Origin: Streptomyces hygroscopicus
GTDB lineage: Bacteria; Actinomycetota; Actinomycetes; Streptomycetales; Streptomycetaceae
Direction: 5' to 3'
Length of the DNA stretch: 64,000 bases
NCBI GenBank assembly: GCA_002021875.1
Contig: CP018627.1
Coordinates: 10,788,001-10,852,000 of the forward strand
Part shown: piece after piece, positions 38,876-54,373 of the stretch
How the letters are laid out: the number at the start of each line of letters is the position of its first letter
Numbering within the stretch: the stretch's first letter is position 1
The notes under the pieces: model-generated
Told to the model about the DNA's origin: nothing
The model's database searches: none
What the model saw: the letters and a program-made list of their open reading frames with translations, nothing else
Program-made: the position numbers and the translations under genes

Positions 38876-39196
38876 TCACCGGCCCCCCACCAGGGCGGTG
38901 TCGGCGCCCAGCGGGCCGACCGCCCCGGCGCCACCGGGGGTGCCCAGCGGGGCGTCCCGGCCGGGCAGGACCTCCTCGAAGAACCGCCGGTTGTCCGCGC
39001 GGTGCTCGGGATCCGCCTTCCGGTCCACGGTGATCGCCTGCTCCGGGCAGGCGACCTCGCAGGCGCCGCAGTCGATGCACTCCACCGGGTTGATGTAGAG
39101 CTTGCGCTCGCCCTCGTAGATGCAGTCGACCGGGCACTCCTCCATGCAGGACCGATCCATGATGTCAACGCAGGACGCGCCGATGACGTAGGCCAT
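38876..39196 (-). CDS. fdxA: 7Fe/8Fe ferredoxin (FdxA type)
   Basis: The protein has 106 aa. Two cluster motifs are present: SCVDIMDRSCMEECPVDC, with the C-x7-C spacing of the 3Fe-4S site, and ECIDCGACEVACP for the 4Fe-4S site. A ~40-residue Gly/Ala-rich tail follows. It starts 1 bp after the reductase stop, so the two form one transcript. I infer that they deliver electrons to the Rieske oxygenase of the island. A bacterial-type ferredoxin in that role is unusual compared with the more common Rieske or plant-type 2Fe-2S ferredoxins. Confidence 0.9.
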   Translation of the reverse strand: MAYVIGASCVDIMDRSCMEECPVDCIYEGERKLYINPVECIDCGACEVACPEQAITVDRKADPEHRADNRRFFEEVLPGRDAPLGTPGGAGAVGPLGADTALVGGR

Positions 39197-39197
39197 G

Positions 39198-40217
39198 TCA
39201 GTTCTCCTTCTCGGTGGAATGCCCGGGGAACAGCGCCGCCTCCGGGTCGATGACCGTGGCGGCGTTGTTGACGGCCGTGGCGGCCTCGCCGAAGCCGACG
39301 GAGATCAGGCGCACCTTGCCCGGGTAGTCGGTGATGTCGCCGGCCGCGAAGACGCGGGGGAGGTTGGTGGCCATGTGGGTGTCCACGGCGATCCGGCGTG
39401 CCTCCAGGGTGAGGCCCCAGTCCCGCAGCGGGCCGAGGTCGGCGATGAAGCCGAGGGCCGCCACCACGGTCTGCGCGGGGAGGCGCGTGGTGTCCTTCGC
39501 CACGCGGTGGCGGATCTCGACCTCCTCCAGCAGCGCGCCGCCGTACAGGCCGCTGACCTCGGAGTCGGTGAGGATCTCGATGCCGAGTGCCCGGACCTTC
39601 TCCACCGACGCGCGGTGGGCGCGGAACCGCGCGGTGCGGTGCACCAGCCGGACCGAGCGCGCCATGGGGGCCAGCAGGGCCGCCCAGTCGAAGGCGCTGT
39701 CGCCACCGCCGACGACCACCACGTCATGGCCGGCGTGGGCGGTGGGGTCGGGCACGAAGTACACCTGGCCGCGGCCGAGGAAATCCTCCCCGGCCGGCAG
39801 CGGGCGGGGAGTGAAGGTCCCCACGCCGCCGGTGATCACCACCGCCCCGGCCCGTACGGTCGTCCCCCGGTCGCTGCGGACCACGGGCAGACCGTCGTCG
39901 TAGGACAGCTCCGTCGCGCGGTGGCCGAGGAGGTAGCGGGTGCCGTGTGTCTCCGCCTGGGCGACCAGGTTGTCGACCAGGTCGCGACCGCGGACCGAGG
40001 CGAATCCGGCGATGTCGAAGATCGGTTTCTCCGGGTACATCGCGCTGATCTGGCCGCCGCGCTGGGGCAGCACATCCATCACGGCGACACGCAGCCCGCG
40101 GAAGCCCGCGCAGTAGGCGCCGTACAGGCCCGACGGGCCGGCGCCGATGATCAGGATGTCCGTCTCGACCACCGCCGCGTCCGCCGCGGCGACCGGCTCA
40201 ACGTTGAGAACGCTCAT
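39198..40217 (-). CDS. Ferredoxin--NADP reductase, thioredoxin-reductase-like
   Basis: The protein has 339 aa from the ATG at 40217. The FAD-binding motif is ILIIGAGPSGLYGAYCAGFR, and the NAD(P)-binding motif VVVVGGGDSAFDWAALLAPM. ALGFIADLGPLRDWG and VFAAGDITDYPGKVRL are as in the type 2 FNR (YumC/TrxR-like without the redox CxxC). It has no ribosome site, and a well-spaced promoter ends 8 nt before the ATG, so the mRNA is probably leaderless. It pairs with the ferredoxin gene downstream. Confidence 0.88.
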   Translation of the reverse strand: MSVLNVEPVAAADAAVVETDILIIGAGPSGLYGAYCAGFRGLRVAVMDVLPQRGGQISAMYPEKPIFDIAGFASVRGRDLVDNLVAQAETHGTRYLLGHRATELSYDDGLPVVRSDRGTTVRAGAVVITGGVGTFTPRPLPAGEDFLGRGQVYFVPDPTAHAGHDVVVVGGGDSAFDWAALLAPMARSVRLVHRTARFRAHRASVEKVRALGIEILTDSEVSGLYGGALLEEVEIRHRVAKDTTRLPAQTVVAALGFIADLGPLRDWGLTLEARRIAVDTHMATNLPRVFAAGDITDYPGKVRLISVGFGEAATAVNNAATVIDPEAALFPGHSTEKEN

Positions 40218-40225
40218 GGAAAAGG

Positions 40226-40254
40226 AGCGTAGGCAGGTCCGGATCACGGTCCAA
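40226..40254 (-). promoter_or_regulatory. Leaderless promoter of the ferredoxin reductase
   Basis: On the minus strand, TTGGAC (40249-40254) and TACGCT (40226-40231) are spaced exactly 17 bp apart. Eight nt separate the -10 box from the ATG at 40217, which has no Shine-Dalgarno sequence. Confidence 0.6.
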
Positions 40255-40321
40255 TGGAATCGGTCCGCCTGCCGGGACACGGCGCGGGACCCGTGGTGCC
40301 GGGACACCGTGGCCCGGACAC

Positions 40322-40376
40322 GCGGGAGCGGTGGAACCCAAGGCGCCCCGTCAGCCTTGGGTTCCACCGCTCCCGC
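40322..40376. terminator. Strong hairpin ending the Rieske operon
   Basis: Perfect 23-bp arms (40322-40344 and 40354-40376) with a 9-nt loop, just past the last MaoC gene of the minus-strand operon and before the reductase promoter. Confidence 0.8.
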
Positions 40377-40395
40377 ACCCGGTCGAGCCGGGTCG

Positions 40396-40791
40396 TCACC
40401 CGGCGAGCGTCACCTCCACCGTCCCCGTGACGCACTCGGAGCCGTCGGCCTTGAGGATGCGCGCGTCCAGACGGACCCGCGCGCCCTCGACCGAGGACAC
40501 CGTCGCGGCCCAGGTCAGCTGCTCACCGGCCACCGCCGTGGCCACGTTGCGCCACGCCACCGACTCCAGCCGGGCGCCCGGCCCGGCCCACTCCAGGGCG
40601 TTGCGGCTGAGCGTCTCGCCGTGCAGCGTCGACTGCACGACGGTGTCGGGAAACCCCTCCGACGCCGCGAACGCGGCGTCGTAATGGATCCGGTGCGCGT
40701 TCCACGACACGGCGCTGAAGCGGAAGAGCTGCACACTGGTGTGGGCGTACCGGCGCGGCGGACACTCTGTCCCGGCAGCGGGCGCCGTCAT
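40396..40791 (-). CDS. MaoC-like hydratase, C-terminal-half type (first pair)
   Basis: The protein has 131 aa, a single hotdog. FSAVSWNAHRIHYDAAFA contains the hydratase Asn/His motif (NAHRIHYD), as in HTD2 and mesaconyl-C4-CoA hydratase proteins. The start overlaps the stop of the N-half gene at 40788 (ATGA). With that partner it should form one heterodimeric double-hotdog enoyl-CoA hydratase. It is the last gene before the 23-bp hairpin. The substrate is presumably a CoA ester made from the ring-cleavage product. Confidence 0.8.
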   Translation of the reverse strand: MTAPAAGTECPPRRYAHTSVQLFRFSAVSWNAHRIHYDAAFAASEGFPDTVVQSTLHGETLSRNALEWAGPGARLESVAWRNVATAVAGEQLTWAATVSSVEGARVRLDARILKADGSECVTGTVEVTLAG

Positions 40792-41324
40792 CGGTCACCT
40801 CCGGTGGCGTCGAGCACCACGATCGTCTCGTCCACGGACGTCAGCTCGCTCCCGTCGGGGGACAAGAACCGGGTCCGCACGCCCAGGAGGACGAACTCAC
40901 CGGACCGTCCGTGTTTGTGCCGCGCGGAGACGACCGCACGGGTCGCCGTGATCCGTGTGCCGGCCACCGGGGGCCGGACCAGGCGCACCGACTGGCCGCC
41001 GTGCACCTGGCGCACCGCGAGACCCTCGGTGCACGGCGACTCACGCTGGGCGAGACCATCCGGCCGCAGTTCGTCCTCCGGCGGGCCGTCCTCCCAGCTC
41101 ATGGTGGCCGCGAGGAACAGGTCGGGCGCCTCGACGGGCCGGCCGTCCGCTTCCAGGGCGCGGGCCCGGCGGATGTACTCGCCGTCGTTGAGGGCGGCGG
41201 CGTAACGGCAGAAGTCCTTGACCGTCGGGGTGCCGCAGTCCTCGTCCCGCCACTGGCCGATCAGCTCCCGCGCCCGCGCCAGTACCTCTTCCAGCGCGGG
41301 GGAGGACACGGCGGGCGCCGTCAC
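40788..41324 (-). CDS. MaoC-like FAS1-type dehydratase, N-terminal-half type (first pair)
   Basis: The protein has 178 aa with a GTG start at 41324 overlapping the IclR stop (GTGA). The N-terminal hotdog pattern includes TPTVKDFCRYAAALNDGEYI and later VHGGQSVRLVRPPVAGTRIT, as in the non-catalytic FAS1-like dehydratase half of MaoC dimers. It complements the catalytic half encoded directly downstream. The IclR gene upstream is on the same transcript, so regulator and hydratase are co-expressed. Confidence 0.78.
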   Translation of the reverse strand: MTAPAVSSPALEEVLARARELIGQWRDEDCGTPTVKDFCRYAAALNDGEYIRRARALEADGRPVEAPDLFLAATMSWEDGPPEDELRPDGLAQRESPCTEGLAVRQVHGGQSVRLVRPPVAGTRITATRAVVSARHKHGRSGEFVLLGVRTRFLSPDGSELTSVDETIVVLDATGGDR

Positions 41325-42103
41325 AGCGCCGACCTCAGCGAGCGGCTGATGCCAAGACCCGCCGTACGCAGCGCGCTGGCGTGGGCGATCGCGTCCACCC
41401 GGTAGGTCGGCGCCGTGATCGACAGGGCCCCGGCGAGGGCGTTCTGCCGGCCGAAGACCGGGACCGCCATGCTCATGTAGCCGAGCCGGACCTCCTCCGC
41501 CTCCGTGGCGATGCCCTGCTCGCGGACCCGGTCCAGCTGGGTGCGCAGCCGGCCCGGCGAGGTGATGGTGTGGCGGGTGAACGGCTTGAGGCCGCTCCTG
41601 ACCACCTCGCCGAACAGGCTGCCGGGGGAGTGGGCGAGGATCGCCTTGCCGGTCGCCGTGCAGTACAGCGGAAGCCGCCCCGCCACCCGCGACTCCTCGC
41701 TCAGCCCCCGGTGGGGGAGGATCTTCTCCAGGTACACCACGTCCAGCCCATCATGGATGGCGAAGTGGATGGTCTCCCGTGTGGCCAGCAGCAGATCCTC
41801 CATATACGGCTGGGCCACCTCCCGCAGGATGCGCTGCCGGTGCACCCGCTGCCCGATCTCGAACAGGCGCAGTCCGAGCCGGTAGTTGCAGCCCGCCCGC
41901 TCCAGCAGCCCCCATGCGACCAGCTCCTGGGACAGCCGGTGGACGGTCGCCTTCGCCACTCCCGAACGGCGCACCAGATCGGCGAGCGAGAGCGAGTCGT
42001 CGTCGGCGGTGAACGCCTCCAGGATGGACCGGACCTTGCCGAGGACGGAGTTCATCGGGTCGGGACAGGTTCTGACGGCTTGGTCGATGGGGACTACGGT
42101 CAT
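41321..42103 (-). CDS. IclR family transcriptional regulator inside the Rieske operon
   Basis: The protein has 260 aa. The HTH is SLADLVRRSGVAKATVHRLS (residues ~39-58). The effector domain has YLEKILPHRGLSEESRVAGR, LPLYCTATGKAILAHSPG and GYMSMAVPVFGRQNALAGAL. It lies within the operon, 16 bp after the C-C hydrolase and overlapping the MaoC gene, so it is made together with the enzymes. This arrangement suits feedback control. I infer that it binds the 17-bp palindromes upstream of the island transcripts. Confidence 0.88.
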   Translation of the reverse strand: MTVVPIDQAVRTCPDPMNSVLGKVRSILEAFTADDDSLSLADLVRRSGVAKATVHRLSQELVAWGLLERAGCNYRLGLRLFEIGQRVHRQRILREVAQPYMEDLLLATRETIHFAIHDGLDVVYLEKILPHRGLSEESRVAGRLPLYCTATGKAILAHSPGSLFGEVVRSGLKPFTRHTITSPGRLRTQLDRVREQGIATEAEEVRLGYMSMAVPVFGRQNALAGALSITAPTYRVDAIAHASALRTAGLGISRSLRSAL

Positions 42104-42119
42104 GGCAGGAACCTCACGA

Positions 42120-42983
42120 TCAGGTGGCCGAGGACGCGGCGAGGAACTCCAGGCTGAGCGGGTTGTACAGATCGGCCTTCTCGTGCTGCGGCCAGTGGCC
42201 GCACTCGTTGAACACCTCGAGCCGCGCCCCGGGGATCGCGGCCGCGATGGCCTCGGCCTCCGGCACGTCGCCGAGCGGGTTCTTGTTGCCCCACACCACC
42301 AGGGTCGGCGCCTTGATCCGGCCCATGCGGTCGGGCCGCAGCAGATTGCGCTCGCGGGCCTCCGGCTCCTGGAGCGCGAGCAGATTGTGCAGGTTCCGCT
42401 GGAAGTCGGGGTGGTGGTAGATGTCGTAGCGGATCTGGGTCAGCTCCTCGCCCAGGTCCTCGTCCCAGTGGGCCCACAGCAGCCGCAGCCGCTCCCGGGT
42501 GAAGGAGATGTCGTCCTTGAGGGCCGCGTCGCTGGTGGACGTCTTCAGCCGCTCCATCACCGCCGGGTTGATCTTCGTGCCGCCCATGCACAGCAGCTGG
42601 AGGGAGGCGACCCGGTCCGGGTGTTCGCTCGCGGCCCACGACCCCACCCAGCCGCCCAGCGACTCGCCGACCAGATGGGCGCGCTCGGCGCCGACGGCGT
42701 CCAGGTAGGCCATCAGGTGCTCGACGTACAGGGGGATCTCGGCCGGGCGGTCGGGCTTGCCCGTGTAGCCGTGGCCCAGCATGTCGATGGAGTGGCAGCG
42801 GTAGCGCTCGGCGTGCGCCGGGATGTTCCGTACGAACGCCTCGAGGTGGCCGGTCGTCCCGTGCAGGAACACCACATGCTCGCCGTCCTCGGGGCCGGCC
42901 TGCAGGGCGCGGGTCTTGAAGTCGCCGGTCTCGACGTAGGTGTGCCGGTAGTCGATGCCCGACAGCTCGTTCCAGATGCTCAT
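42120..42983 (-). CDS. Alpha/beta hydrolase, meta-cleavage-product hydrolase type
   Basis: The protein has 287 aa. The oxyanion loop is VVFLHGTTGHLEAFVRNIP, the nucleophile elbow LVGESLGGWVG (Ser), the acid region VVWGNKNPLGDVPEAE, and the catalytic His is in NECGHWPQHEKA. The start overlaps the extradiol dioxygenase stop (ATGA). In this position an MhpC/CarC-type hydrolase would cut the C-C bond of the yellow ring-fission product. A second, more BphD/HsaD-like hydrolase sits at 48899, so the two may handle different ring-cleavage products. Confidence 0.85.
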   Translation of the reverse strand: MSIWNELSGIDYRHTYVETGDFKTRALQAGPEDGEHVVFLHGTTGHLEAFVRNIPAHAERYRCHSIDMLGHGYTGKPDRPAEIPLYVEHLMAYLDAVGAERAHLVGESLGGWVGSWAASEHPDRVASLQLLCMGGTKINPAVMERLKTSTSDAALKDDISFTRERLRLLWAHWDEDLGEELTQIRYDIYHHPDFQRNLHNLLALQEPEARERNLLRPDRMGRIKAPTLVVWGNKNPLGDVPEAEAIAAAIPGARLEVFNECGHWPQHEKADLYNPLSLEFLAASSAT

Positions 42984-43960
42984 GACTGCCTTTCGCTGGT
43001 CTGCGCGGGGGTCTGTGCGGGGGCCTGTGCGGGATCGAGGACGGCGACCCCCATGCCGGTGAGCCACTCGGGCATCGGTTCATAGGCCAGGCGCCGGCCC
43101 GGGATGTGATCGAGCAGCGCGGACATCAGCAGCCAGGTGCGCAGCTCCTGGGCGCCGTTGCCGGCCACCTTCTCCAGTTCCGCGGTGGTGTACTCGGTGA
43201 TGCGGTGCGCCTGTCCCCGCTCCATCCAGGACAGGATTTCCTCGTCGAACTCCGGGTTGAGCGACGCCTCGGCGGCCCGGATGATCTCGCGGCGGCGCAC
43301 GTCGTAGTCCTGCCAGTTCTCCCGGCCGTTGAGCCAGGCGCCGACCATGAACTCCTCGTCCTCGCCGTTCGGATCGCGCCAGTCCGGCCAGGGCAGCCGG
43401 TGGGACAGCCCGCCGGAGCCGATGACCGCCACCCGGCGGTCGCCGGGGAACGCCAGGACCGCCTCCCGGATCGCCCGGCCAAGCTGCTCGCAGCGCTCCA
43501 GGGTGGGCAGCGGCGGCGCGAAGACGTTCACCACGAGCGGTACCAGGTCGACGTCGAGCCCGTCGAGCAGATACTGGACGGCGTGCGACTGGCCGTGGTC
43601 GATCTGCAGCCGGGCGGAGAACGCCACGTCGAAACCGGACCGCTCCACGAGCGAACCCGCGAGGTACAGGGCCAGCTCCCGGTCCACCGGCTGCGGGCCC
43701 TTCGGGGTGCCGGACTCGCCGCTGGCGATGCACTCGTCCACCCCGATGGTGAAGCTGGGGATCAGATCGAGCCAGAACCCCCGGAAGTGGTTGGAGCCGA
43801 TGAGGATCACCGTGTCGGGACGGGCCGCGGCCAGCGCGTCCCGCGCCTGGCCGAGCGCGTCCCGGAACCGCTCGGCGCGGTCCTTGTGGTACGTCTCCTC
43901 CCAGTGGGTGTTCATCAGCGTGCTGTGCGACGCTCCGACCCCCAGGACGATCTCGGTCAT
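42980..43960 (-). CDS. Class III extradiol ring-cleavage dioxygenase (LigB/MhpB type)
   Basis: The protein has 326 aa. Conserved ligand and catalytic regions appear in order: VLGVGASHSTLMNTHWEE, IGSNHFRGFWLDLIP, QIDHGQSHAVQYLLDG and VIGSGGLSHRLPWPDW. These include the Fe(II)-binding His pair and catalytic histidines of the MhpB/LigB family. It opens a catechol-type ring next to one hydroxyl group. A 4-bp overlap joins it to the M20-like gene upstream and to the hydrolase downstream. A C-terminal Ala/Gln/Thr repeat tail (AQAPAQTPAQT) is unusual. The substrate is probably made by the Rieske oxygenase. Confidence 0.9.
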   Translation of the reverse strand: MTEIVLGVGASHSTLMNTHWEETYHKDRAERFRDALGQARDALAAARPDTVILIGSNHFRGFWLDLIPSFTIGVDECIASGESGTPKGPQPVDRELALYLAGSLVERSGFDVAFSARLQIDHGQSHAVQYLLDGLDVDLVPLVVNVFAPPLPTLERCEQLGRAIREAVLAFPGDRRVAVIGSGGLSHRLPWPDWRDPNGEDEEFMVGAWLNGRENWQDYDVRRREIIRAAEASLNPEFDEEILSWMERGQAHRITEYTTAELEKVAGNGAQELRTWLLMSALLDHIPGRRLAYEPMPEWLTGMGVAVLDPAQAPAQTPAQTSERQS

Positions 43961-45294
43961 GCCCCTGCTCCTTCCAGCTCCTCGCGGGACCGGGTGACGG
44001 TGTCCACGGCCGTGCGGATCAGATGGCGGGTGAGCTTCTCCATGGCCCGCAGCGACACCGTGTTCATGCCGCGGGCGAAGTCGATCTCGAACGGCGCCTC
44101 CGCCACCTTGGGCATGCCGACCCGCACCGTGGGGATGCCACGGCCGCGCAGGATGTTGGCGTCGGTGGCGCCGCTGTTCCCGGGGATCACCTCGTGCTCG
44201 CGCCCCTCCAGCGCCTCCCAGGCGGCCGTGGCGCTGCGGTGGATCCACGATTCGCGCGGGGTGCGGGTGCCGGGGATCGCCAGCACCATCTCCGCCCGGA
44301 CGTCGAGCCCGGGCGAGGCGGCCCGCAGCGCGGCCAGCGCGTCCATGAACTCGCGCTTGGCCCCCATCGGTGTGATGTCGGGGCTGATCCGCAGGTCCAC
44401 CATGAGGGTGCACACGGCGGGGGTCACCGCCGCCATCCGCGGCCAGCCGCCGCGGATGGCGGAGACGATGCCCTGCGGCGCCACCGTGCCCGAGGTGTGC
44501 CGCTCGGCGTACCCCTCGAACCACTTCTCCAGGTACGCGGACACTTCCCCGGCACGGGCGATGGCGTTGTCGTACGGGAGCCGGTGGCGGGAGCCCGCGT
44601 AGGTGTGGGTGCCGCCGACCGTCACCTCGAACCAGACCAGCCCGACCTCGTCCCACGAGACGGTCCAGCCGGGCTTGGCGATGACCGCGTAGTCGGTCCA
44701 CACGCCCTGCTCCAGCAGGAACGAACACCCGGCGCCCTGGCCGGTGTTGAGGCGCGTGCCCACGGGCCGGGCGTTGGTGGGCATCCCGCCCGCGCCGAAC
44801 GCCGCGACCAGGTCACCGGTGAGCGGGACACCGGCCAGCGAGATCGCCTCGATGGCCATCATCACGCACGCCGCGTGGCCCTTGGGGTTGGAGGCGCCGA
44901 GCCCGGTGACCAGGTCGTCGTACACCGTGGCCGCGGGCCGCATGTCCTCGCGCAGCTCCGGGCCGATCCACGGTACGTCCTCGCTCTCCTCGCCCACCGT
45001 CAGCGTGTCGATGGGGGCGTACAGCATGAGGTCGGGGCCGGTGCCGTCACCGGTCAGCCGCCCCCAGGCGTTGGCCTGGCGGTCGTCGAGGGGCTGGACG
45101 GCCGAGTGGCAGCCGGCGTCGCGCAGGGTGCCGGCGATATGGGTGGCCAGCGGGCCCTCGTCGCCGGTCGGGCTGGGAATGTTCACCAGGCCCGTGATCA
45201 GCTCGCGGAGCCGGTCGGTGCTGATGTGGCGGGCGGCGTCGAGGGCCCAGGCGCGCCGCCGGTCATCCAGTCCCGCCAGGCCGTCGGCGGTCAC
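43957..45294 (-). CDS. M20-fold protein lacking the metal ligands
   Basis: The protein has 445 aa with a GTG start at 45294, overlapping the small ORF stop (GTGA). The overall order matches ArgE/DapE peptidases, but each metal-site motif is changed. The HxD site is PID (LMLYAPIDTLTVG), the DxKG bridging Asp is Asn (GASNPKGHAAC), the Glu-Glu base/ligand pair is AG (AAFGAGGMP), EPT is KPG (VIAKPGWT), and the final His is missing (FARGMNTVS). The dimer-interface His (GGTHTYAG) and ATDAN remain. A di-zinc hydrolase mechanism is therefore unlikely. It may use another chemistry or be structural. Confidence 0.75.
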   Translation of the reverse strand: MTADGLAGLDDRRRAWALDAARHISTDRLRELITGLVNIPSPTGDEGPLATHIAGTLRDAGCHSAVQPLDDRQANAWGRLTGDGTGPDLMLYAPIDTLTVGEESEDVPWIGPELREDMRPAATVYDDLVTGLGASNPKGHAACVMMAIEAISLAGVPLTGDLVAAFGAGGMPTNARPVGTRLNTGQGAGCSFLLEQGVWTDYAVIAKPGWTVSWDEVGLVWFEVTVGGTHTYAGSRHRLPYDNAIARAGEVSAYLEKWFEGYAERHTSGTVAPQGIVSAIRGGWPRMAAVTPAVCTLMVDLRISPDITPMGAKREFMDALAALRAASPGLDVRAEMVLAIPGTRTPRESWIHRSATAAWEALEGREHEVIPGNSGATDANILRGRGIPTVRVGMPKVAEAPFEIDFARGMNTVSLRAMEKLTRHLIRTAVDTVTRSREELEGAGA

Positions 45295-45407
45295 TGGTTG
45301 ATCCTGTGGACCTGCGTCATCGTGGTCCGCGCGATGCGCTTTGTGGCCAGCGGGATCCCGACGGCGATCGCGGCGCCCAGCAGCAGGGTGAACAGTTTAC
45401 GGAACAT
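45291..45407 (-). CDS. 38-aa single-span membrane microprotein
   Basis: The frame runs from the ATG at 45407 to the TGA at 45291-45293. AAGG lies 7 nt upstream, within the end of the Rieske gene. The peptide begins MFRKLFTLLLGAAIAVGIPL, one hydrophobic span with a positive start, and ends in a basic tail (KRIARTT...). Its start lies 1 bp past the Rieske stop and its stop overlaps the M20 start (GTGA), so it is precisely coupled in the operon. I know no family for it. It could anchor or scaffold the oxygenase system at the membrane or aid uptake. Confidence 0.65.
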   Translation of the reverse strand: MFRKLFTLLLGAAIAVGIPLATKRIARTTMTQVHRINQ

Positions 45408-45408
45408 G

Positions 45409-46626
45409 TCATGCCTTCTCTTCGGGTGCGGATGCGCCACAGGCCGCGGTCAGCTTCTTGCCGTACTCCTCCTCGCTCAGGTTCCGCCAGGCGGTGAGCG
45501 AGATATCGGGCCGGTAGAGCTTCTCCGGCGGCGCGTCCGTGACATCGACCATCCACGCGTCCTGGCCGGAGAACTGGCCGTGGAACAGCCAGCGGATCGC
45601 CCCGAGGTACTTGGCGTAGAAGCGCAGGGTGTCCCAGCCCTCGGTGAAGTTGACCATCACGCCGACATAGCGGTGGTTGTCCTCGTCGACCGGGACGTAG
45701 AACTCGTAGTGGATGAACTTGGGGTAGGCGATGCGCAGCACGCCCGGCATCGACAGGGAGGCGAACCCGGGGAAGTCCTGCGCCTCGATGGTCGGATCGA
45801 CGCTGTCGGCCTTGCCGGTGTTGCCGATGTTGAAGGTCTCCTTGGGCGGCTGCATCTTCCACCACCGCTTGTTGGACCAGCGGCCCACCCCCGGGAACTC
45901 GGCGTCCCAGTGGACCTCGTCCTGGACCCGGAAGATCCACCGGCCGCGCGGCACGATCCGGGTGATGTTCCAGGTCGGCATGGGCTTGAACAGCCGCCAC
46001 AGGGCCGTGCGGTGCAGATACTTGGCGTGGCCCTCGTCGAAGCCGTTCTCACAGGCGAACCGCCAGTTGCCACCGCGCGGCTCGATCCGTCCGCCCATCA
46101 CGAACGCGTTGGAGACGAGCTCCTCCGGAAGCTGGGAGTCGATCGAGTGCGGCTCCTCGTCGGCGATCGGGATGTACACCCACACCATGCCGAGGCGCTC
46201 CTCGACCGGGTAGGTGCGCACGCCCAGCTTGCCGGTCAGCCGGCACCCGGGGCCGTCGGTGATGACGGCGGACAGCCGTCCGGTGGGCAGATCGAAGGTC
46301 CAGCCGTGGTACGGGCAGCTGACCGTGCCCGGGAACTGCTGGTTGCCCTCGGACAGCGGCACACCGCGGTGCGGGCACCGGTTGTGCAGGGCGTACGCCG
46401 TGCCGTTGTCGCGGATCAGCGCGATCCGCTCGCCGCAGATGGTGAACGGCAGCGGCTTCCCCGTGACCTGGCTGGACCAGGTGACCGGATACCAGTAGCC
46501 GCGGAAGCCCGCTGCCGCACCGTCGTAATGGGGCCAGGACGACCAGTCCTGGCGACCGGGCTCGGCGGGTTTCCTGCGGCGGCTCCGGACGGGGGTGGCC
46601 GTGTCGGGAGAGTCCTCGACCGTCAT
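45409..46626 (-). CDS. Rieske non-haem iron oxygenase, CarAa-like alpha subunit
   Basis: The protein has 405 aa. The Rieske site is CPHRGVPLSEGN then SCPYHGWTF. The mononuclear iron ligands fall in ENGFDEGHAKYLHR. Segments such as FRGYWYPVTWS, NWRFACENGFD, SMPGVLRI, EFYVPVDEDNHRY and TAWRNLSEEE follow the carbazole 1,9a-dioxygenase/2-oxoquinoline 8-monooxygenase branch, whose members need no beta subunit; none is encoded nearby. AGGAGG precedes the ATG. It is the first gene of the eight-gene operon and is expressed from the divergent region with two palindromes. I infer hydroxylation of an aromatic or N-heteroaromatic ring. Confidence 0.9.
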   Translation of the reverse strand: MTVEDSPDTATPVRSRRRKPAEPGRQDWSSWPHYDGAAAGFRGYWYPVTWSSQVTGKPLPFTICGERIALIRDNGTAYALHNRCPHRGVPLSEGNQQFPGTVSCPYHGWTFDLPTGRLSAVITDGPGCRLTGKLGVRTYPVEERLGMVWVYIPIADEEPHSIDSQLPEELVSNAFVMGGRIEPRGGNWRFACENGFDEGHAKYLHRTALWRLFKPMPTWNITRIVPRGRWIFRVQDEVHWDAEFPGVGRWSNKRWWKMQPPKETFNIGNTGKADSVDPTIEAQDFPGFASLSMPGVLRIAYPKFIHYEFYVPVDEDNHRYVGVMVNFTEGWDTLRFYAKYLGAIRWLFHGQFSGQDAWMVDVTDAPPEKLYRPDISLTAWRNLSEEEYGKKLTAACGASAPEEKA

Positions 46627-46717: not shown

Positions 46718-46760
46718 GCTCCCTACCCGACGGAGGGCGAGACGGTGGCCGCCGCGGCGC

Positions 46761-47825: not shown

Positions 47826-47869
47826 GCGATGATCTCGCCCGGGCGATCTCATCCCGACGCGGGGCGCGG

Positions 47870-48268
47870 TCAGCCCATCAGGACCACGGCCGTGCCCCGG
47901 CAGCACACCACATCACCCTGCCCACCGTGCTCGACCAGCTCCAGGGTGACCCGCCCCGTCTCTGGATCGACCTCGCCGACCGTGCCGCTCACCACGAGCC
48001 GCTCCCCGGCGAGGGCCGGGGCCCGGTTCTGCCATCCGACCTCCAGAACCTGTCCGCCCGGACCCGCGAAGCTCATGGCGGCCCGGTGCATCAGACAGCC
48101 GTGCAGCTGCGCCATGACGACCGGCCCGTCCAGCCCCTCGGAACGCGCGAACCCGGTGTCGTAGTGGATGCGATGGGTATTGCGGGTGACCGCCCCGAAC
48201 CGCAGCAGGGTGACGGCATCCGGGGTGAACTCCACCGGTGGTACGGGCTGCCCCGGGTGAACGCTCAT
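47870..48268 (-). CDS. MaoC-like hydratase, C-terminal-half type (second pair)
   Basis: The protein has 132 aa. The motif FGAVTRNTHRIHYDTGFARSE carries the Asn/His catalytic pattern and is clearly paralogous to the protein at 40396. The start overlaps the N-half gene (ATGA). Together they make a second heterodimeric enoyl-CoA hydratase in the same island. That implies two hydration or dehydration steps, or two substrates, in the pathway. Confidence 0.8.
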   Translation of the reverse strand: MSVHPGQPVPPVEFTPDAVTLLRFGAVTRNTHRIHYDTGFARSEGLDGPVVMAQLHGCLMHRAAMSFAGPGGQVLEVGWQNRAPALAGERLVVSGTVGEVDPETGRVTLELVEHGGQGDVVCCRGTAVVLMG

Positions 48269-48741
48269 CGGACGATGAACCTCTCCCGCACCCGGACGAG
48301 CGTGCCCCGCTCCGCCGTGTACGTCTTCTCGACGGTCAGCAGCAGGAACGGTGTTCCGCTGCCCTTGCGTTCGACCTCCGTGAGGACCCGGCGGACCTGG
48401 ATCCGGTCGCCCGCCCTCACCTCGCCGGTGAACCGGACCTCCTGGCCCCCCGCCATGAGCCGCACGTCCAGGCCGTCGGTGCCCGGGACCTCGTCGCGGT
48501 ACATGCCGTCCGGCCGGCACTCGTCCTGGCCGGCGCCTCCCGCGCCGCGCAACAGGCTCACCAGGTACATCGGGTGGACGGTGAAGTCCGGGCGGCCGGG
48601 ATCGACCAGATGCGGGCCGGTCTCCCCGGCCGAGCGCGCGAACTCCGCCGCGTCCTCGGCCCGTACGACACCCAGGTCCCGGTGTTCCGGGCGGCCGATC
48701 GCCGCCCGGGCCCGTTCCTCGGCAACTTCCCACGCGGACAT
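48265..48741 (-). CDS. MaoC-like FAS1-type dehydratase, N-terminal-half type (second pair)
   Basis: The protein has 158 aa from the ATG at 48741. The pattern RAEDAAEFARSAGETGPHLV, then GGQEVRFTGEVRAGDRIQVR, is an N-terminal hotdog. It is shorter than its counterpart at 40788. It is divergent from the BphD/HsaD-like hydrolase with a palindrome between them. It is coupled to the catalytic half downstream and likely functions only as a complex with it. Confidence 0.77.
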   Translation of the reverse strand: MSAWEVAEERARAAIGRPEHRDLGVVRAEDAAEFARSAGETGPHLVDPGRPDFTVHPMYLVSLLRGAGGAGQDECRPDGMYRDEVPGTDGLDVRLMAGGQEVRFTGEVRAGDRIQVRRVLTEVERKGSGTPFLLLTVEKTYTAERGTLVRVRERFIVR

Positions 48742-48839
48742 GTGCTGCCTTTCTGCGGACGACTACCGCGGACACGTCTTTCGCGGACCACGATGGACCG
48801 GGAGGCTAGCCACCGCCCGGAGGCGGTCACCACGAGACC

Positions 48840-48856
48840 GGCCCGCTCAGCGGACC
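48840..48856. promoter_or_regulatory. Island palindrome, site 3
   Basis: GGCCCGCTCAGCGGACC lies in the 157-bp divergent region between the second MaoC pair and the C-C hydrolase/CaiB/ligase unit, 43 bp before the hydrolase start. It is a 17-bp palindrome with one mismatched pair. Confidence 0.7.
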
Positions 48857-48898
48857 GGACCGCTTGGGCGGAGATCACCGGCACCACACCATCGGGGC

Positions 48899-49771
48899 AT
48901 GGACCTCATGAACATCCAGAAGCCGCCGGAGGGCGCCCACGCGGAAGCGGACGGCGCCACGTACCACTACATCGAGCTGGGCACGTCGGGCGGCAGCCCC
49001 ACGGTCTTCCTCCACGGCGGCGGCCCCGGGTGCACGGGCTGGTCCGACTTCGGACAGGTGGCACCGCTGTTCGCCCAGGACCGCCACTGCTTCCTCGTGG
49101 ACATCCTGCAGTACGGCAAGTCGGCCAAGCCCGTCATCGAAGGCCCCATGTGGGACTATCACGCCGCCAAGACGGTGGCCCTGCTCGACACCCTGGGCAT
49201 CGAGCGCGCCGACTTCGTGTGCAATTCCTGGGGCGGAACCATCGCGCTGAACCTGGCCGCGAAGTACCCCGAGCGGGTCCGGTCGCTGACGATCACCGGC
49301 AGCATGCCCGTGTTCCACGGCCCGCTGGCCCCGCTGCCCGAGGGCGGCCGGCGCGGCCGCAACGCCCGTGACGTGTACTACGGCGGCACCGGCCCCTCCT
49401 GGGAGAAGATGCGGGACCTGATCGCCCGCCTGGAGTGGTACGACGCCGGTGCCATCCCCGACGACACCGTCACCCTGCGCTACGAGCAGAGCCTCGACCC
49501 GGAGGAGACCGCCCTCGCCGGTGCCTCCGACAACCCCCGCGGCGACTGGCAGGACCTCACCGCGGAGCTCGGCGCCATCCAGGCCCCCGCCCTCTTCATC
49601 TGGGGCATGTACGACGCGTTCCTCACCCCCGACTATCCGCTGATGCTCGCCCGCATGGTCCCCAAGGGCAATCTGCACATCATGGACCAGGTCTCCCACC
49701 ACCTTCAGGAGGAGCGGCCGCACGATTACTACACGGCGGTCACCGGCTTCCTGAACCAGCAGCACGCCTGA
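48899..49771 (+). CDS. BphD/HsaD-like C-C bond hydrolase
   Basis: The protein has 290 aa; the ATG at 48899 and another at 48908 are both possible, and neither has a strong ribosome site. The oxyanion loop is FLHGGGPGCTGWSDFGQVAP, typical of BphD/HsaD. The nucleophile is CNSWGGTIALNLAAKYPERV, the acid MYDAFLTPDYPL, and the catalytic His in DQVSHHLQEERP. These enzymes hydrolyse meta-ring-fission products to a dienoate plus a carboxylic acid. It leads the hydrolase-CaiB-ligase transcript, so the released acid is probably activated to a CoA ester by the following genes. Confidence 0.87.
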   Translation: MDLMNIQKPPEGAHAEADGATYHYIELGTSGGSPTVFLHGGGPGCTGWSDFGQVAPLFAQDRHCFLVDILQYGKSAKPVIEGPMWDYHAAKTVALLDTLGIERADFVCNSWGGTIALNLAAKYPERVRSLTITGSMPVFHGPLAPLPEGGRRGRNARDVYYGGTGPSWEKMRDLIARLEWYDAGAIPDDTVTLRYEQSLDPEETALAGASDNPRGDWQDLTAELGAIQAPALFIWGMYDAFLTPDYPLMLARMVPKGNLHIMDQVSHHLQEERPHDYYTAVTGFLNQQHA

Positions 49772-49789
49772 GCATCCCGCGGAGGAGAT

Positions 49790-52090
49790 GTGAGCAACCC
49801 GGCCGTACGCGTCGTCGAACTGTCCAGCCCCTTCACCCGGTTCGCGGGCCGGCTCCTGGTCGGCCTCGGATATGAGGTCGTCCTGGTCGAGCCCGAGGAG
49901 GGGGATCCGGCCCGGCGGGAACTGAACGGCGACGCGTTTGTCCACTGGCACGCCGGTAAACGGTCCGTGACCCCCGCGTCCCCGGAGGAGCTGCGGCGCC
50001 TGGTGAAGGGAGCCGACGTCCTCCTCGACGGGACTCCGGACGGTGCGCCGGAGGCCGTCGCGGGCCTGGACCACCTCGTCCATGTCCGCGTCACCCCCTT
50101 CGGGACCGTGGGCCCCCGCAGTCACTGGCAGGGCACCGATCTGGTGGTCGCCGCGCTCGGCGGCATGCTCGCGCAGGTCGGCGACCCGGACGGCCCGCCG
50201 CTGCGCCTTCCGGAGAACCAGGCGGAGCAGCTCGCCGGGGTGCACGCCGCGATCGCCGCGCTCCTCGGCCTGCGGGCGCGGCGCACGGGGCCGGGCCAGC
50301 TCGCCGACGTGTCCGCCCAGGCGTGCGCGGCCGCCGCCCTGGAGGCCGGCACCCTCGCCTATCTGCACGAGGATCGGGTGCCGGGACGCCCCGGCCGGGT
50401 GCATCCGCTGGTGCCGCACGGACTGTTCCGGGCCGCCGACGGCTATCTGGGCGGTGGCCTCGGCGGCAGCCCCCGCATGTGGGACGCGCTCCTCGTCTGG
50501 CTGCGCGAGGAGGGCGCCGAGGCCGACCTCGCCGAGCCGCGCTGGCAGGACCCGGTGGAGCGCAAGAAGTACCAGGAGCACGTCTTCGAGGTGGTGCAGG
50601 ACTTCGCGGGCCGGTGGCCGAAGGCCGAATTCGCCGAGCTCGCCCAGTCCAGGAAGCTGCCCTGGGCGTCCGTCGACCTGCCGCACGAGATGCCCGGCAA
50701 TCCGCAGCTCGCCGCCCGTGACTTCTTCCTCCGCGCCGGGGGCCGCACCGACCTGGGCTTCCCCTTCGCGTTCCCGGACGGCCACCGGATCACGGAGCTG
50801 GACGTCCCGGAACGGGGCGCGGACCAGCGGCTGCTGCAGGAGCACCGGCCGACGCCGCGGGTGCCCGCGGCGTCCGCGGAACCCGCGCGGCCCGCCCTGC
50901 ACGGCGTCCGCGTCCTGGACCTGACCTGGGTGCTCGCCGGGCCCTATTGCACCAAGGTGCTCGCCGACCACGGGGCCGATGTCATCAAGGTCGAGTCGCT
51001 GGGCCGTCCCGACCCCACCCGGTTCGCGCCCTTCATGCATCTGTCCCGCGGCCCGCACACCGATCCGAACACCAACGGCTACTTCAACGAGGTCAACCGC
51101 AACAAGCGCAGCCTGGCCCTGGACACCCGCACCGAGGACGGCATCGCCGTACTGCGCGGCCTCATCGCCTCCTGCGACGTCCTGGTGGAGAACTTCAGCG
51201 CCACCGTCATGACCAAACTCGGCCTCGGCTACGACACCCTCCGCGAGATCAACCCCCGCCTGGTGTACGTCAGCATGTCCGGCATGGGACACAGCGGCCC
51301 GCGCAGCGGCTGGGTGTCGTACGCGGACACCGTGTCGGCCTCCTCGGGGCTCACCGGCCTGACCGGATGGGGCCCGGACGACGTGGTCGGGGTGATCTAC
51401 GGCCACGGCGACATCGTCGCCGGTCTGCAGGCCGCGCTCGCCACCACCGCCGCCCTGGAACACCGGGAGCAGACCGGGCGCGGACAGCACATCGACCTGT
51501 CCCAGCTCGAGGCGATCGCCTCCCATATGGGCACCAGCCTGCTCAACCCCGTCGAGCCCGCCGGGAACACCGATCCGCGATGGAGCCCGCAGGGCGTGTA
51601 CCGCTGTCTCGGCGCCGACCGCTGGCTGGCCGTCAGCGTCCGCGACGACACCGAATGGGCCCGGCTGTGCACGGTGATCGGGCACCCGGACCTCGCCACC
51701 GACGAACGCACCCGCACCTCGGCCGACCGCGCACACCACACCGACCTGGTCGACGACGCCCTCGCCACCTGGGCCAGGACCCTGCCGGCCGACGCCGCCG
51801 CCGAACTCCTCCAGGAGCAGGGCATACCCGCGGGCGCGGTGCAGGACGGCCGCGACCTCGTCGAGCAGGACCCGCAGCTGCGGGCCAGGGGCTTCTACGT
51901 CCGCGCGGAACACCCGGTGGCGGGCGCCTTCCTGCACGAGGGGCCGCCCATCCGGCTCACCCGCACACCGGGCGGCGTCCGCACGGCGGCACCCGTGCTC
52001 GGCGCCGACACCGACGATGTGCTGCGCGATGTCGCGGGGCTGCCACCGGAGCGGATCCGCGAACTGCGCGAGCGCGAGGTGCTGCGGTGA
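49790..52090 (+). CDS. Double-length CaiB/BaiF family CoA-transferase
   Basis: The protein has 766 aa with GTG start and GGAGGA upstream, about twice the usual length. Two CaiB/BaiF domains lie in tandem: ~1-345 and ~365-760. The second is canonical, with LDLTWVLAGPYCTKVLADHG, VKVES-like IKVESLGRPDPT, NKRSLALDTRTEDG and GQHIDLSQLEAIAS. The Glu in SQLEA occupies the catalytic acid position. The first half is divergent, and at the same place reads ADVSAQACAA with no acid, so it may be structural. Family III transferases move CoA between organic acids. It overlaps the ligase start. Confidence 0.87.
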   Translation: MSNPAVRVVELSSPFTRFAGRLLVGLGYEVVLVEPEEGDPARRELNGDAFVHWHAGKRSVTPASPEELRRLVKGADVLLDGTPDGAPEAVAGLDHLVHVRVTPFGTVGPRSHWQGTDLVVAALGGMLAQVGDPDGPPLRLPENQAEQLAGVHAAIAALLGLRARRTGPGQLADVSAQACAAAALEAGTLAYLHEDRVPGRPGRVHPLVPHGLFRAADGYLGGGLGGSPRMWDALLVWLREEGAEADLAEPRWQDPVERKKYQEHVFEVVQDFAGRWPKAEFAELAQSRKLPWASVDLPHEMPGNPQLAARDFFLRAGGRTDLGFPFAFPDGHRITELDVPERGADQRLLQEHRPTPRVPAASAEPARPALHGVRVLDLTWVLAGPYCTKVLADHGADVIKVESLGRPDPTRFAPFMHLSRGPHTDPNTNGYFNEVNRNKRSLALDTRTEDGIAVLRGLIASCDVLVENFSATVMTKLGLGYDTLREINPRLVYVSMSGMGHSGPRSGWVSYADTVSASSGLTGLTGWGPDDVVGVIYGHGDIVAGLQAALATTAALEHREQTGRGQHIDLSQLEAIASHMGTSLLNPVEPAGNTDPRWSPQGVYRCLGADRWLAVSVRDDTEWARLCTVIGHPDLATDERTRTSADRAHHTDLVDDALATWARTLPADAAAELLQEQGIPAGAVQDGRDLVEQDPQLRARGFYVRAEHPVAGAFLHEGPPIRLTRTPGGVRTAAPVLGADTDDVLRDVAGLPPERIRELREREVLR

Positions 52091-53604
52091 CCTCCCTGAC
52101 GATTCCCGGGCTGCTCCACACCGCGGCCCGGGACCACGGGGACCGCCCCTTCCTGCGGATCGGGGACACCGTCCGCACCTACCGCCAGGCGCGAGAGGCC
52201 GCCGCCACCATGGCGGGGGCCCTCGCGGCCCGCGGCTGCCGCCCGGGCGACCGCATCGCGGCGATGACGGGCAACCGGGTCGAACTCGTCGACCTGTTCC
52301 TCGGCGCCGCCTGGCTCGGCGCCGAACTGGTCCCGCTGAACACGGCGCTGCGCGGCAGCGGGCTGCGGAATGTCCTGGACCAGGCCCGCCCCACCCATCT
52401 GCTCGCGGAGGACGAGACGGCGGAGCGCCTGCGGGCGGCCGGGTACCGGGGGACGCTGTGGCTCGCGGGAGCGGACGACGTGCCCCGGCCGGGCCACGGC
52501 CCCGCCCTGCCGGCGGCCCCCGTCCGCCCCGGCGACACCGCGTGCGTCCTCTTCACCTCCGGGACCACCGGAACCTCCCGCGGGGTCCGCTGCCCCCACG
52601 CCCAGTTCGTCTGGTGGGGGCGCAACGTCTCCGGCGCGCTGCGCCTCACCGCGGACGACGTCCTCTACACCTGCCTCCCGCTGTTCCACACCAACGCCCT
52701 GAACGCGCTGGCACAGGCGATGACCGTGGGGGCGGCGTACACCCTCGCCCCCCGCTTCTCGGCCTCCCGGTACTGGACCGAGGCGGCCGGGGCCGGGGCC
52801 ACCGTGGTCTACCTGCTGGGCGCCATGGTGCCGATGCTGCTGGCCCAGCCGCCGGGCCCGCACGACCGTGCACACCGGGCCGTACGCGGACTCTCCCCGG
52901 CGACACCGGCCCACGCCTGGCAGCCGTTCCGCGAGCGGTTCGGCGTCACCCTGATCGACGGATTCGGCTCCACCGAGACCAACCTCGTCATCGGCACGAC
53001 GCCCGATCAACAGCGGCCCGGCTACATCGGCACCCTGCGCGACGGCTTCGACGCCCGCGTCGTCGACGAACTGCTCACCCCCGTCCCCGACGGCACCCCC
53101 GGCGAGCTCCTGGTGCGCAGCCACCGGCCGTACGCCTTCGCCACCGGCTACCTGGGCGAGCCGGCGGAGCCCGCGGACGCGTGGCGGCGCACGGGGGACC
53201 GGGTGGTGCGCGAACCCGACGGCTGGTTCCGGTTCGTGGACCGCATCAAGGACGTCATCCGCCGCCGCGGGGAGAACATCTCCTCCTGCGAGGTCGAGAC
53301 GGTCGTCCGTAGCCATCCCTCGGTGGCCGACGCCGCCGTCTTCCCCGTGCCGTCCGAGCTGGCGGAGGACGAGGTGATGGTCGCCGTGCTGCCCCGCGCG
53401 GGCAGCACCCTCGACCCGGCCGACCTGATCCGCCACTGCGAGCTCGAGCTGCCCCCGTTCGCCGCCCCCCGCTACGTGGACATCCTGCGCGAGCTGCCGC
53501 TCACCGAGACCGGCAAGGTGCGCAAGGCGGCGCTGCGGCGGCGTGGTGTCACGGAGACGACATGGGACCGGGCTACGACCGAGGCCGGTCCACCCATGCG
53601 GTGA
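52087..53604 (+). CDS. Acyl-CoA synthetase / AMP-dependent ligase
   Basis: The protein has 505 aa, with a GTG start overlapping the CaiB stop (GTGA). Adenylation motifs are in order: the P-loop LFTSGTTGTSRGVRCPH, GFGSTETN, the hinge-region RTGDRVV followed by FRFVDRIKDVIRRRGENIS, and the catalytic lysine in LPLTETGKVRKAAL. It resembles crotonobetaine/carnitine-CoA ligase CaiC, which also partners with CaiB. It should activate the acid that enters the CoA-dependent part of the pathway. Its 3' end overlaps the convergent hydrolase gene by 32 bp. Confidence 0.88.
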   Translation: MTSLTIPGLLHTAARDHGDRPFLRIGDTVRTYRQAREAAATMAGALAARGCRPGDRIAAMTGNRVELVDLFLGAAWLGAELVPLNTALRGSGLRNVLDQARPTHLLAEDETAERLRAAGYRGTLWLAGADDVPRPGHGPALPAAPVRPGDTACVLFTSGTTGTSRGVRCPHAQFVWWGRNVSGALRLTADDVLYTCLPLFHTNALNALAQAMTVGAAYTLAPRFSASRYWTEAAGAGATVVYLLGAMVPMLLAQPPGPHDRAHRAVRGLSPATPAHAWQPFRERFGVTLIDGFGSTETNLVIGTTPDQQRPGYIGTLRDGFDARVVDELLTPVPDGTPGELLVRSHRPYAFATGYLGEPAEPADAWRRTGDRVVREPDGWFRFVDRIKDVIRRRGENISSCEVETVVRSHPSVADAAVFPVPSELAEDEVMVAVLPRAGSTLDPADLIRHCELELPPFAAPRYVDILRELPLTETGKVRKAALRRRGVTETTWDRATTEAGPPMR

Positions 53605-54373
53605 CGACGTCGGCGAACTCCCCGGGCAACTGCTCGGGCGCCGGCACGTGGCCGCCGGGCAGGACCGCGGTCTCGCAGCCGAGCGCCGCCGCGAACTTCT
53701 CCAGCGCGGGCAGCGAGTAGTGGTCCTCCGGCGCGCACACGGCGAGCACCGGGGCCGTGATGTGCGCCAGCCGCTCCTCCATCCGGTACCGGTACACCGC
53801 CTGGTGCCCCTCCTCCACCCGGTCCAGCACGCTCAGCGCGTCGATCACATAGCGGGTCAGAGCGGCCTCCTCGCCCGCCCGGTAGAAGCCGCGGCGCCGG
53901 TTCCACAGCTCCACCAGATGCGAGCCGTCCGGCTTCGGATCGACATGGTCGACCGGGGGGCGCCCGGGAGCCGCCTGACGCTTGGCCTCGTCGACGAAGG
54001 CGGTGGCCGAGAGCAGCAGACTGCTGACGCGGTCGCCCAGCCGGGCGGCCACCTCCACCGCGACCACACCGCCCGTGTGATGGCCCACCAGGTGGAACGT
54101 CTCCAGCCCGAGCCCATCGGCCAGCGCCTCCACCCCGTCGGCGAACCGCTCGATCGAGTGCGGCCCCTCGGGCTTGGCCGAGGCGCCGAACCCCACGGTG
54201 TCCATGGCGATGGCCCGGTGTGCCCGGCCCACCAGGGGCAGCGCATCGGCGTACTCGGTCCAGGAACGCGGCGTCTGATGCAGCAGCAGCACCGCCTCGC
54301 CGGACCCGCACTCCGCGTAGTGCAACTGCCCGAAGGGGCTGGGCACATAGCCCCGCCGCACCGTGTTCGCCAT
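53573..54373 (-). CDS. Alpha/beta-fold hydrolase with a His-type elbow (GHHTGG)
   Basis: The protein has 266 aa from the ATG at 54373, with GGAAGGCGG upstream; an ATG at 54394 is an alternative. The fold is clear: LLLHQTPRSWTEYADALPL, DTVGFGASAKPEGPHSIERF, LAVCAPEDHYSLPA and LPGGHVPAPEQLPGEFAD. The nucleophile elbow, however, reads LVGHHTGGVVAVE, with no Ser, Cys or Asp at the central position. This suggests a non-esterase activity or a cofactor-free lyase/oxygenase-type reaction. It has its own promoter with palindrome site 4, so it belongs to the island's regulon. Confidence 0.8.
   Translation of the reverse strand: MANTVRRGYVPSPFGQLHYAECGSGEAVLLLHQTPRSWTEYADALPLVGRAHRAIAMDTVGFGASAKPEGPHSIERFADGVEALADGLGLETFHLVGHHTGGVVAVEVAARLGDRVSSLLLSATAFVDEAKRQAAPGRPPVDHVDPKPDGSHLVELWNRRRGFYRAGEEAALTRYVIDALSVLDRVEEGHQAVYRYRMEERLAHITAPVLAVCAPEDHYSLPALEKFAAALGCETAVLPGGHVPAPEQLPGEFADVVTAWVDRPRS

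Follow-up and report, generated by a model that had tools for sequence, protein, structure and literature searches.

The window analysed here, a stretch of 64,000 nucleotides from Streptomyces hygroscopicus (contig CP018627.1), covers 10.79-10.85 Mb of a 12.0-Mb single-contig genome, and the closest homologs among the matches listed come from Streptomyces of the violaceusniger group. Between positions 38876 and 54373 of the window lies a block of 16 genes, called by codon-position composition (third-position GC, 0.88-0.97), which an earlier note, drawn from the DNA letters alone, had described as an island for the degradation of aromatic or N-heteroaromatic compounds, in which the ring is hydroxylated and opened by class III meta cleavage and the product is split by C-C hydrolysis. 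Our analysis supports that description, with an N-heteroaromatic as the probable type of substrate: the block is a genuine catabolic cluster, conserved among actinobacteria and a new combination within a known general kind, with a core of five genes encoding a Rieske oxygenase, an M20-fold protein, a LigB-type dioxygenase and the hydrolases HydA and HydB. The most interesting part of the cluster is the M20 lineage, which it has in common with quinolone 8-monooxygenase loci. The genes in the window were assigned from family scans (Pfam and NCBIfam) together with PDB sequence matches, and those of the block are as follows.

38876..39196, minus strand: FdxA-type ferredoxin, probable electron carrier to the oxygenase (NCBIfam FdxA_Actino, 122 bits; cut-off 125)
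39198..40307 (start possibly 40367), minus strand: thioredoxin-reductase-like ferredoxin-NADP reductase, FNR (best PDB match 273 bits)
40396..40791, minus strand: MaoC half, pair 1 (PF01575, 25.4 bits; cut-off 27)
40788..41324, minus strand: FAS1-DH/MaoC half, pair 1 (PF13452, 21.8 bits; cut-off 22)
41321..42103, minus strand: IclR-family regulator within the operon (PF01614, 131 bits)
42120..42983, minus strand: HydA, alpha/beta hydrolase related to meta-cleavage-product (MCP) hydrolases (nearest solved relatives, 89 bits)
42980..43960, minus strand: LigB/MhpB-type class III extradiol dioxygenase (PF02900, 115 bits)
43957..45294, minus strand: metal-less M20-fold protein, proposed role in ring-nitrogen release
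45409..46626, minus strand: Rieske oxygenase alpha subunit, no beta subunit (PF00355, 74 bits; PF11723, 53 bits)
46899..47825 (start possibly 46845), plus strand: medium-chain dehydrogenase/reductase (MDR), candidate ene-reductase (acrylyl-CoA reductase family, 110 bits; cut-off 297)
47870..48235, minus strand: MaoC-like half, pair 2 (no Pfam match; weak NCBIfam PRK08190, 25 bits)
48265..48741, minus strand: FAS1-DH/MaoC half, pair 2 (PF13452, 44 bits)
48899..49771, plus strand: HydB, MCP hydrolase (best solved relative 107 bits; BphD, HsaD and MhpC among the nearest)
49790..52090, plus strand: double-length family III CoA-transferase (CaiB), 766 residues (PF02515, two stretches)
52087..53604, plus strand: AMP-forming acyl-CoA ligase (PRK06155, 669 bits; cut-off 722)
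53573..54373, minus strand: HydC, alpha/beta-hydrolase fold without a serine nucleophile (GHHTG(G/A) motif)

The minus-strand operon runs in the order Rieske-M20-LigB-HydA-IclR-MaoC pair-FNR-Fdx, with overlapping stop and start codons linking M20, LigB and HydA, and the plus strand carries MDR, HydB, CaiB and the ligase. The gene list of the earlier note is borne out by the family scans, with the addition of the IclR regulator inside the operon, which it had not named. Of the two split MaoC hydratases that it described, both pairs are present, with three of the four halves matching their families only weakly. The CaiB protein is of double length, as had been noticed; by eye, its C-terminal half carries a GDIVAG-type motif, which we take to hold the catalytic Asp, and the seemingly matching N-terminal place reads EQLAG, so that one half may be inactive.

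Conservation of these genes was assessed in the best 80 of 369 relatives, which were retrieved from named bacterial genomes with an alignment of oxygenases as the query; 63 of these loci retain at least 20 kb (full flank). Such sampling makes the counts lean to close kin, and genes more than about 10 kb away fall outside the view. Family labels in the loci come from a simple GC-based gene caller and BLAST clusters (the names P450, GntR and Dpp permease were given by eye), and the presence of window-type genes was scored by tblastn, partial matches included. The oxygenase, LigB and HydA were each found in 63 of the 63 full-flank loci, M20 and HydB in 62, and IclR in 59, followed by FNR and Fdx (47 each), HydC (44), MDR (39), CaiB (35), each half of the second MaoC pair (33) and the ligase (31). 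The core has all five of its genes in 62 of the 63. L074 counts as the single exception despite its tblastn matches to LigB and HydA, since these are mere fragments between the oxygenase and HydC, and it has no M20. Across all 80 loci the M20 gene starts within 400 bp downstream of the oxygenase in 76; among the remaining four, LigB stands between the two genes in two and M20 is missing in two, L074 and L045; in L045 other genes come after the oxygenase. In a search of 295 Streptomyces genomes at E 1e-100, M20 and the oxygenase were each found in 17, the identical 17 (the window's own genome included), at neighbouring positions; because such genome searches score only a handful of first-look candidates in each genome, these counts are minimum values. 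The same core, rearranged, occurs in more distant genomes (L106, L108, L121, L122). One Streptomyces genome carries two M20/oxygenase pairs (G841:C1:1057747-1059069), one M20 match there containing a TGA, and in four Actinomadura/Nonomuraea loci (L058, L072, L074, L079) a metallo-beta-lactamase-fold protein and an MhpA-like FAD hydroxylase come after the core.

The coenzyme A (CoA) arm behaves differently. A CaiB, ligase or PaaK-like gene lies within about 10 kb in at most 44 of the 63 full-flank loci, two of which (L015 and L043) qualify only through a ligase match of 29-30%; the 19 loci without any of the three are mostly from Nocardia, Rhodococcus/Prescottella and Actinomadura. A P450-like plus PaaK-like module, free of CaiB or ligase matches, was found in 6 of the 80 loci. 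Crotonase genes occur in 15 of the 80, 14 of which have no MaoC match at all, as if the two kinds of hydratase replaced each other across loci. Given a core complete in nearly every locus and CoA-arm genes in a smaller share, the core is the conserved unit, to which the CoA arm is often, though not always, attached. The earlier note had joined both in one island, which holds for the core; the CoA arm is only accessory. It had also named gene order in other actinomycetes as the place to check the cluster, and a lack of co-occurrence elsewhere as reason to abandon it: core synteny is kept in tens of loci, so that the cluster reading stands. Chance assembly of unrelated genes is rejected for the core by this synteny and by the co-occurrence of M20 and oxygenase; it is not rejected for the CoA arm. 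In the open-access PMC literature, where most matches were judged by their listing alone, no characterised homologous gene set with a known substrate was found, and the view that no described cluster has this set holds as far as these searches go.

The M20 protein has no Pfam match; NCBIfam ArgE/DapE (E 5e-21), a PDB match and a predicted fold with a predicted local distance difference test score (pLDDT) of 90.7 place it in the M20 fold, and the His/Asp/Glu metal ligands of that fold are absent. In alignment with canonical M20 proteins (three control genes from plasmid records, two of them used for the position map), the canonical His, Asp, Glu-Glu, Glu and His fall on P94, N136, G170-M171, K207 and A407, and the ligands are replaced throughout 322 aligned relatives, a set that includes near-duplicates. 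This agrees with the earlier reading of an M20 fold stripped of its metal ligands. N136, K207 and T377-D378 are invariant in 322 of 322 sequences and P94 in all but one. One further match of the M20 search (L123 in genome G502) retains the HxD His and Glu residues in another gene context and was dropped.

Both in fold and in sequence, the closest solved relative is 5-nitroanthranilate aminohydrolase (5NAA-A, PDB 5k8m-5k8p), an enzyme that hydrolyses an aromatic C-N bond. Both proteins have Asn for the bridging Asp. Identity is about 25%, however, and the aminohydrolase's His aligns with P94, its Glu residues with G170 and K207, and its R289 with V290; the aligned His and two Glu positions are presumably its metal ligands. 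It is possible, and we put it forward tentatively, that the metal-less M20 protein is the missing ring-nitrogen-releasing enzyme of quinolone degradation, which would hydrolyse an arene or lactam C-N bond without a metal. In the excerpt of a Rhodococcus study, the step from 2,8-dihydroxyquinoline (8-hydroxy-2-quinolone) to 8-hydroxycoumarin and ammonia is given without an enzyme (PMC9029321).

The link to quinolone degradation comes from the neighbours of distant M20 relatives. The best relative from the plasmid collection (39%; the other 19 listed reach 25-28%) is carried by a megaplasmid of Cupriavidus necator, where a Rieske oxygenase lies 1.2 kb away. That oxygenase matches 2-oxo-1,2-dihydroquinoline 8-monooxygenase (OxoO, 1z01) over its full length with 863 bits, against at most 311 for CarAa, and by sequence is a probable OxoO ortholog. 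Within this locus (L083), a BenC/MmoC-type reductase, OxoR-like by position, lies between oxygenase and M20, and an amidase follows M20. As a query, the Cupriavidus M20 matched in 7 of 394 actinobacterial genomes, the window's own included. One of the loci (L104 8276-14976, genome G343) is a compact run on one strand: an oxygenase resembling OxoO (about 44%), a reductase that shares 42% identity with its Cupriavidus counterpart, then a BphC-like extradiol dioxygenase, an amidase, M20 and a BphD-like hydrolase; G343 itself is an actinobacterium with a 2.6-Mb assembly. An M20 gene near the oxygenase is thus common to the cluster and the OxoO loci L083 and L104, although it is not an established mark of the pathway. 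The amidase in these two loci occupies the place of HydA, which suggests that HydA takes the amidase's part. A search for OxoO in 396 actinobacterial genomes at E 1e-40 came back empty, which says little, as G343 with its OxoO-like gene was possibly not sampled.

In another of these genomes (G059), the locus reads Fdx, FNR, MhpE, MhpF, MhpD, a regulator, an oxygenase (about 51%), LigB, a hydrolase, M20 and a three-subunit molybdenum hydroxylase, with M20 sharing an operon with the last. Molybdenum hydroxylases of this kind add oxygen next to the nitrogen of N-heteroaromatics. The substrate of this one is not fixed by sequence, because its large subunit matches several molybdenum hydroxylases, quinoline 2-oxidoreductase coming only fifth. 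A quinoline-degrading Rhodococcus has been described without an annotated quinoline 2-oxidoreductase (PMC6588367).

A different view of the M20 protein is that it is a non-enzymatic partner which binds the substrate or the oxygenase, nitrogen release being spontaneous or left to HydA or HydC; this would be compatible with any substrate. The loss of the canonical ligands and the valine at the R289 position speak for it. On the other hand, column identity averages 80% over 12 actinobacterial sequences and 58% over a mixed set of 34, K207 and T377-D378 are among many residues that do not vary, and the gene is kept even in the G059 operon, where a single alpha/beta hydrolase was called in the stretch examined. 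We regard such a binding role as conceivable and somewhat doubtful, much as we do the hydrolytic one.

The oxygenase itself has a Rieske domain and a PF11723 catalytic domain (52.8 bits against a cut-off of 24.4), and no beta-subunit family was detected among the scanned genes neighbouring it, which fits a homotrimeric ring hydroxylase and agrees with the earlier description of a beta-subunit-free enzyme. Its predicted electron chain is FdxA/FNR, the reductase having a thioredoxin reductase as its top PDB match and ferredoxin-NADP reductases of that fold as the next six. Its best single PDB match is CarAa (3gcf, 170 bits), and the earlier note had called it CarAa-like. The likeness holds at the PF11723 level and not beyond, because in the tree CarAa and OxoO form one clade and the window-type oxygenases fall outside it at 28-32% identity (branches are long and the deep placement is unsure); identity is 28-30% to three CarAa and about 29% to the Cupriavidus OxoO ortholog.

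A pathway of the carbazole kind, with angular dioxygenation, would share with the cluster the PF11723 oxygenase, meta cleavage and the alpha/beta (MCP) hydrolases. The car clusters of pCAR1, pCAR3 and Acinetobacter pIC001B differ, however, in having a two-gene CarB (a small gene plus a LigB-type gene, CarBa/CarBb) where the window has a single, MhpB-like LigB, and they show no M20 and no CoA genes in the 7-13 kb compared. Together with the tree, this comparison leaves carbazole unsupported, and we consider it very improbable. The Mhp/Hpp pathway for 2,3-dihydroxyphenylpropionate resembles the cluster in its MhpB-type dioxygenase, MCP hydrolase and MhpDEF; it differs in that the window block has no MhpA-type hydroxylase, entry being by Rieske oxygenase and M20, and its MhpDEF genes are unlinked. 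That the set lies outside the classical carbazole and mhp pathways, as had been claimed, is thus confirmed for the three car clusters and for mhp.

Ring cleavage and what follows it are closer to known ground. The best NCBIfam matches of LigB are 3-carboxyethylcatechol 2,3-dioxygenases, below their cut-offs, and its nearest solved relative is 2,3-dihydroxyphenylpropionate 1,2-dioxygenase (142 bits); H12, H58, H122, H126 and H187 are conserved in at least 97% of sequences. MCP hydrolases are the nearest solved relatives of both HydA and HydB, in accordance with their first description as C-C hydrolases. HydA has GESLGG in 74 of 74 sequences and possibly acts in amide or lactone hydrolysis, and the HydB motif is CNSWGG in 70 of 73 and CSSWGG in the other three. 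The third hydrolase, HydC, is as odd as had been noted: GHHTG(G/A) replaces the G-x-S-x-G nucleophile motif of serine alpha/beta hydrolases in 43 of 43 sequences, and the C-terminal His position is not conserved. Reasoning from the Mhp route, cleavage by LigB followed by a C-C hydrolase should produce 2-hydroxypenta-2,4-dienoate, which would require that the catechol bear a substituent at just one of its ortho positions. No diol dehydrogenase family was detected among the scanned genes of the block, as would be expected if the oxygenase yields a catechol directly. Genes for 2-keto-4-pentenoate hydratase (MhpD), acetylating acetaldehyde dehydrogenase (MhpF) and 4-hydroxy-2-oxovalerate aldolase (MhpE) lie in 16-17 of the 80 loci; in the window's genome, relatives (79-91% identity) form an apparent operon at about 2,770,470-2,773,320, unlinked to the cluster. 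Next to this operon, in the stretch around it (locus L092, G000:C1:2762000-2780000), lies another HydC-like gene (64% to the window's HydC), and the stretch also holds a luciferase-like oxidoreductase, whose family is found in five cluster loci.

These enzymes would also suit the degradation of an O-heterocycle or a plain ortho-substituted arene, such as a coumarin or a phenylpropanoid, in which nitrogen is irrelevant and M20 handles a lactone or an isomer. LigB and the hydrolases fit 2,3-dihydroxyphenylpropionate-type chemistry, and an MDR ene-reductase acting on 7-hydroxycoumarin is described for Pseudomonas mandelii in the excerpt of PMC7913881. The links of M20 to OxoO-type oxygenases and to a molybdenum hydroxylase, together with the aromatic C-N bond on which the enzyme of its closest fold acts, make such a substrate unlikely.

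The gene families, the synteny, the ligand loss, the M20-OxoO linkage and the existence of MhpDEF are established at the level of sequence; the substrate (at class level), the order of steps, the role of M20 and that of the CoA arm are what we infer. On balance, we lean towards a cluster that catabolises a benzo-fused N-heteroaromatic of the 2-oxo-quinoline type by an 8-hydroxycoumarin-type route. The Rieske oxygenase, a homomer supplied with electrons by the FNR-like reductase and FdxA, would oxygenate the carbocycle next to the ring nitrogen. The M20 protein, probably with the serine hydrolase HydA, would then open the N-ring and free the nitrogen; the product would be a catechol substituted at position 3, of the 2,3-dihydroxyphenylpropionate/cinnamate type, whose side-chain C=C bond may be reduced by the MDR protein. 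LigB would cleave the ring, HydB would hydrolyse the C-C bond to give 2-hydroxypenta-2,4-dienoate and a short acid, and MhpD/E/F at about 2.77 Mb would finish the dienoate. The accessory CoA arm (CaiB, ligase, MaoC) may serve substituents, the HydB-released acid or another substrate. In support of the route, the excerpt of the Rhodococcus study proposes as intermediates 2-hydroxyquinoline, 2,8-dihydroxyquinoline, 8-hydroxycoumarin with NH4+, 2,3-dihydroxyphenylpropionate and a meta-cleavage product (PMC9029321), an order for which the cluster offers a gene per step (oxygenase, M20 with HydA, MDR, LigB, HydB, MhpDEF).

Compared with the quinoline 8-hydroxycoumarin pathway of the P. putida 86 type (OxoO/OxoR, XenA), the cluster shares a PF11723-type oxygenase, M20 relatives beside OxoO-type oxygenases, the matching order of published intermediates and, at family level only, a 2,3-dihydroxyphenylpropionate-type extradiol enzyme with a hydrolase. 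It differs in using FdxA and a thioredoxin-reductase-like FNR instead of a BenC/MmoC-type reductase, and an MDR protein where P. putida 86 has the old yellow enzyme XenA. Several points weigh against the 2-oxo-quinoline assignment. The oxygenase, only about 29% identical to the OxoO ortholog, lies in another clade; no molybdenum hydroxylase or amidase was found in the window block; and the quinoline pathway offers no step for the CoA arm. The M20-OxoO linkage is seen in two loci only and the molybdenum-hydroxylase linkage in one, with no further copy of the G059 M20 among 22 relatives of G059. With both the canonical ligands and the R289 position replaced, M20 may not be a hydrolase at all.

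A further point comes from genes beyond HydC. At 55930-59991 the block is adjoined by an Lrp-type regulator and the two genes below, a possible extension of the cluster to 59991.

57161..58417, plus strand: amidohydrolase, possible upstream amide cleavage (PF01979, 161 bits)
58417..59991, plus strand: AbgT-family importer, possible upstream uptake (PF03806, 495 bits)

Relatives of these three genes recur next to the cluster in several Streptomyces loci in differing arrangements, and AbgT relatives (36-39%) occur in L059 and L068. Between HydC and the Lrp gene, at 54506-55771, lies an O-antigen-ligase-like membrane protein whose family is found in 4 of the 80 loci (L004, L005, L006, L035). The AbgT, Dpp-like and amidohydrolase neighbours hint at an amide-conjugated acid: the substrate might be an aromatic acid, for example of the indole-acetic or oxindole-acetic type, imported as an amino-acid conjugate by AbgT or Dpp and freed by the amidohydrolase, with its acid side chain processed by the CoA arm. 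AbgT (7), amidohydrolase matches (8) and DppB/C-like permeases (7) occur among the 63 full-flank loci, an AbgT plus M20-amidohydrolase pair in L059 and an amidase in L048. All of these are in a minority of loci, and molybdenum hydroxylases as in G059 would, to our knowledge, not be expected on indoles. The auxin iad pathway, as far as the excerpt of PMC12633357 goes, has a different gene set, in which a Rieske oxygenase of paired alpha and beta subunits is joined by an acyl-CoA synthase and a thiolase, and its end point is anthranilate; it was rejected as a reading of the cluster. We hold a conjugated acid of this kind to be distinctly unlikely. For the 2-oxo-quinoline assignment, a quinoline carboxylate or other aromatic acid would do to accommodate amide-linked-acid uptake; because the oxygenase clade, the missing molybdenum hydroxylase, the CoA arm and the uptake neighbours do not fit, the substrate is named only as a class.

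If the hydrolytic role of M20 is true, an active site that works without metal, on a scaffold known otherwise from metallohydrolases, would be new chemistry, and a conserved gene that stands both beside an OxoO ortholog and in this cluster offers a single candidate for the nitrogen-release step. The core genes would, in addition, serve as markers for the turnover of N-heteroaromatics among soil actinobacteria.

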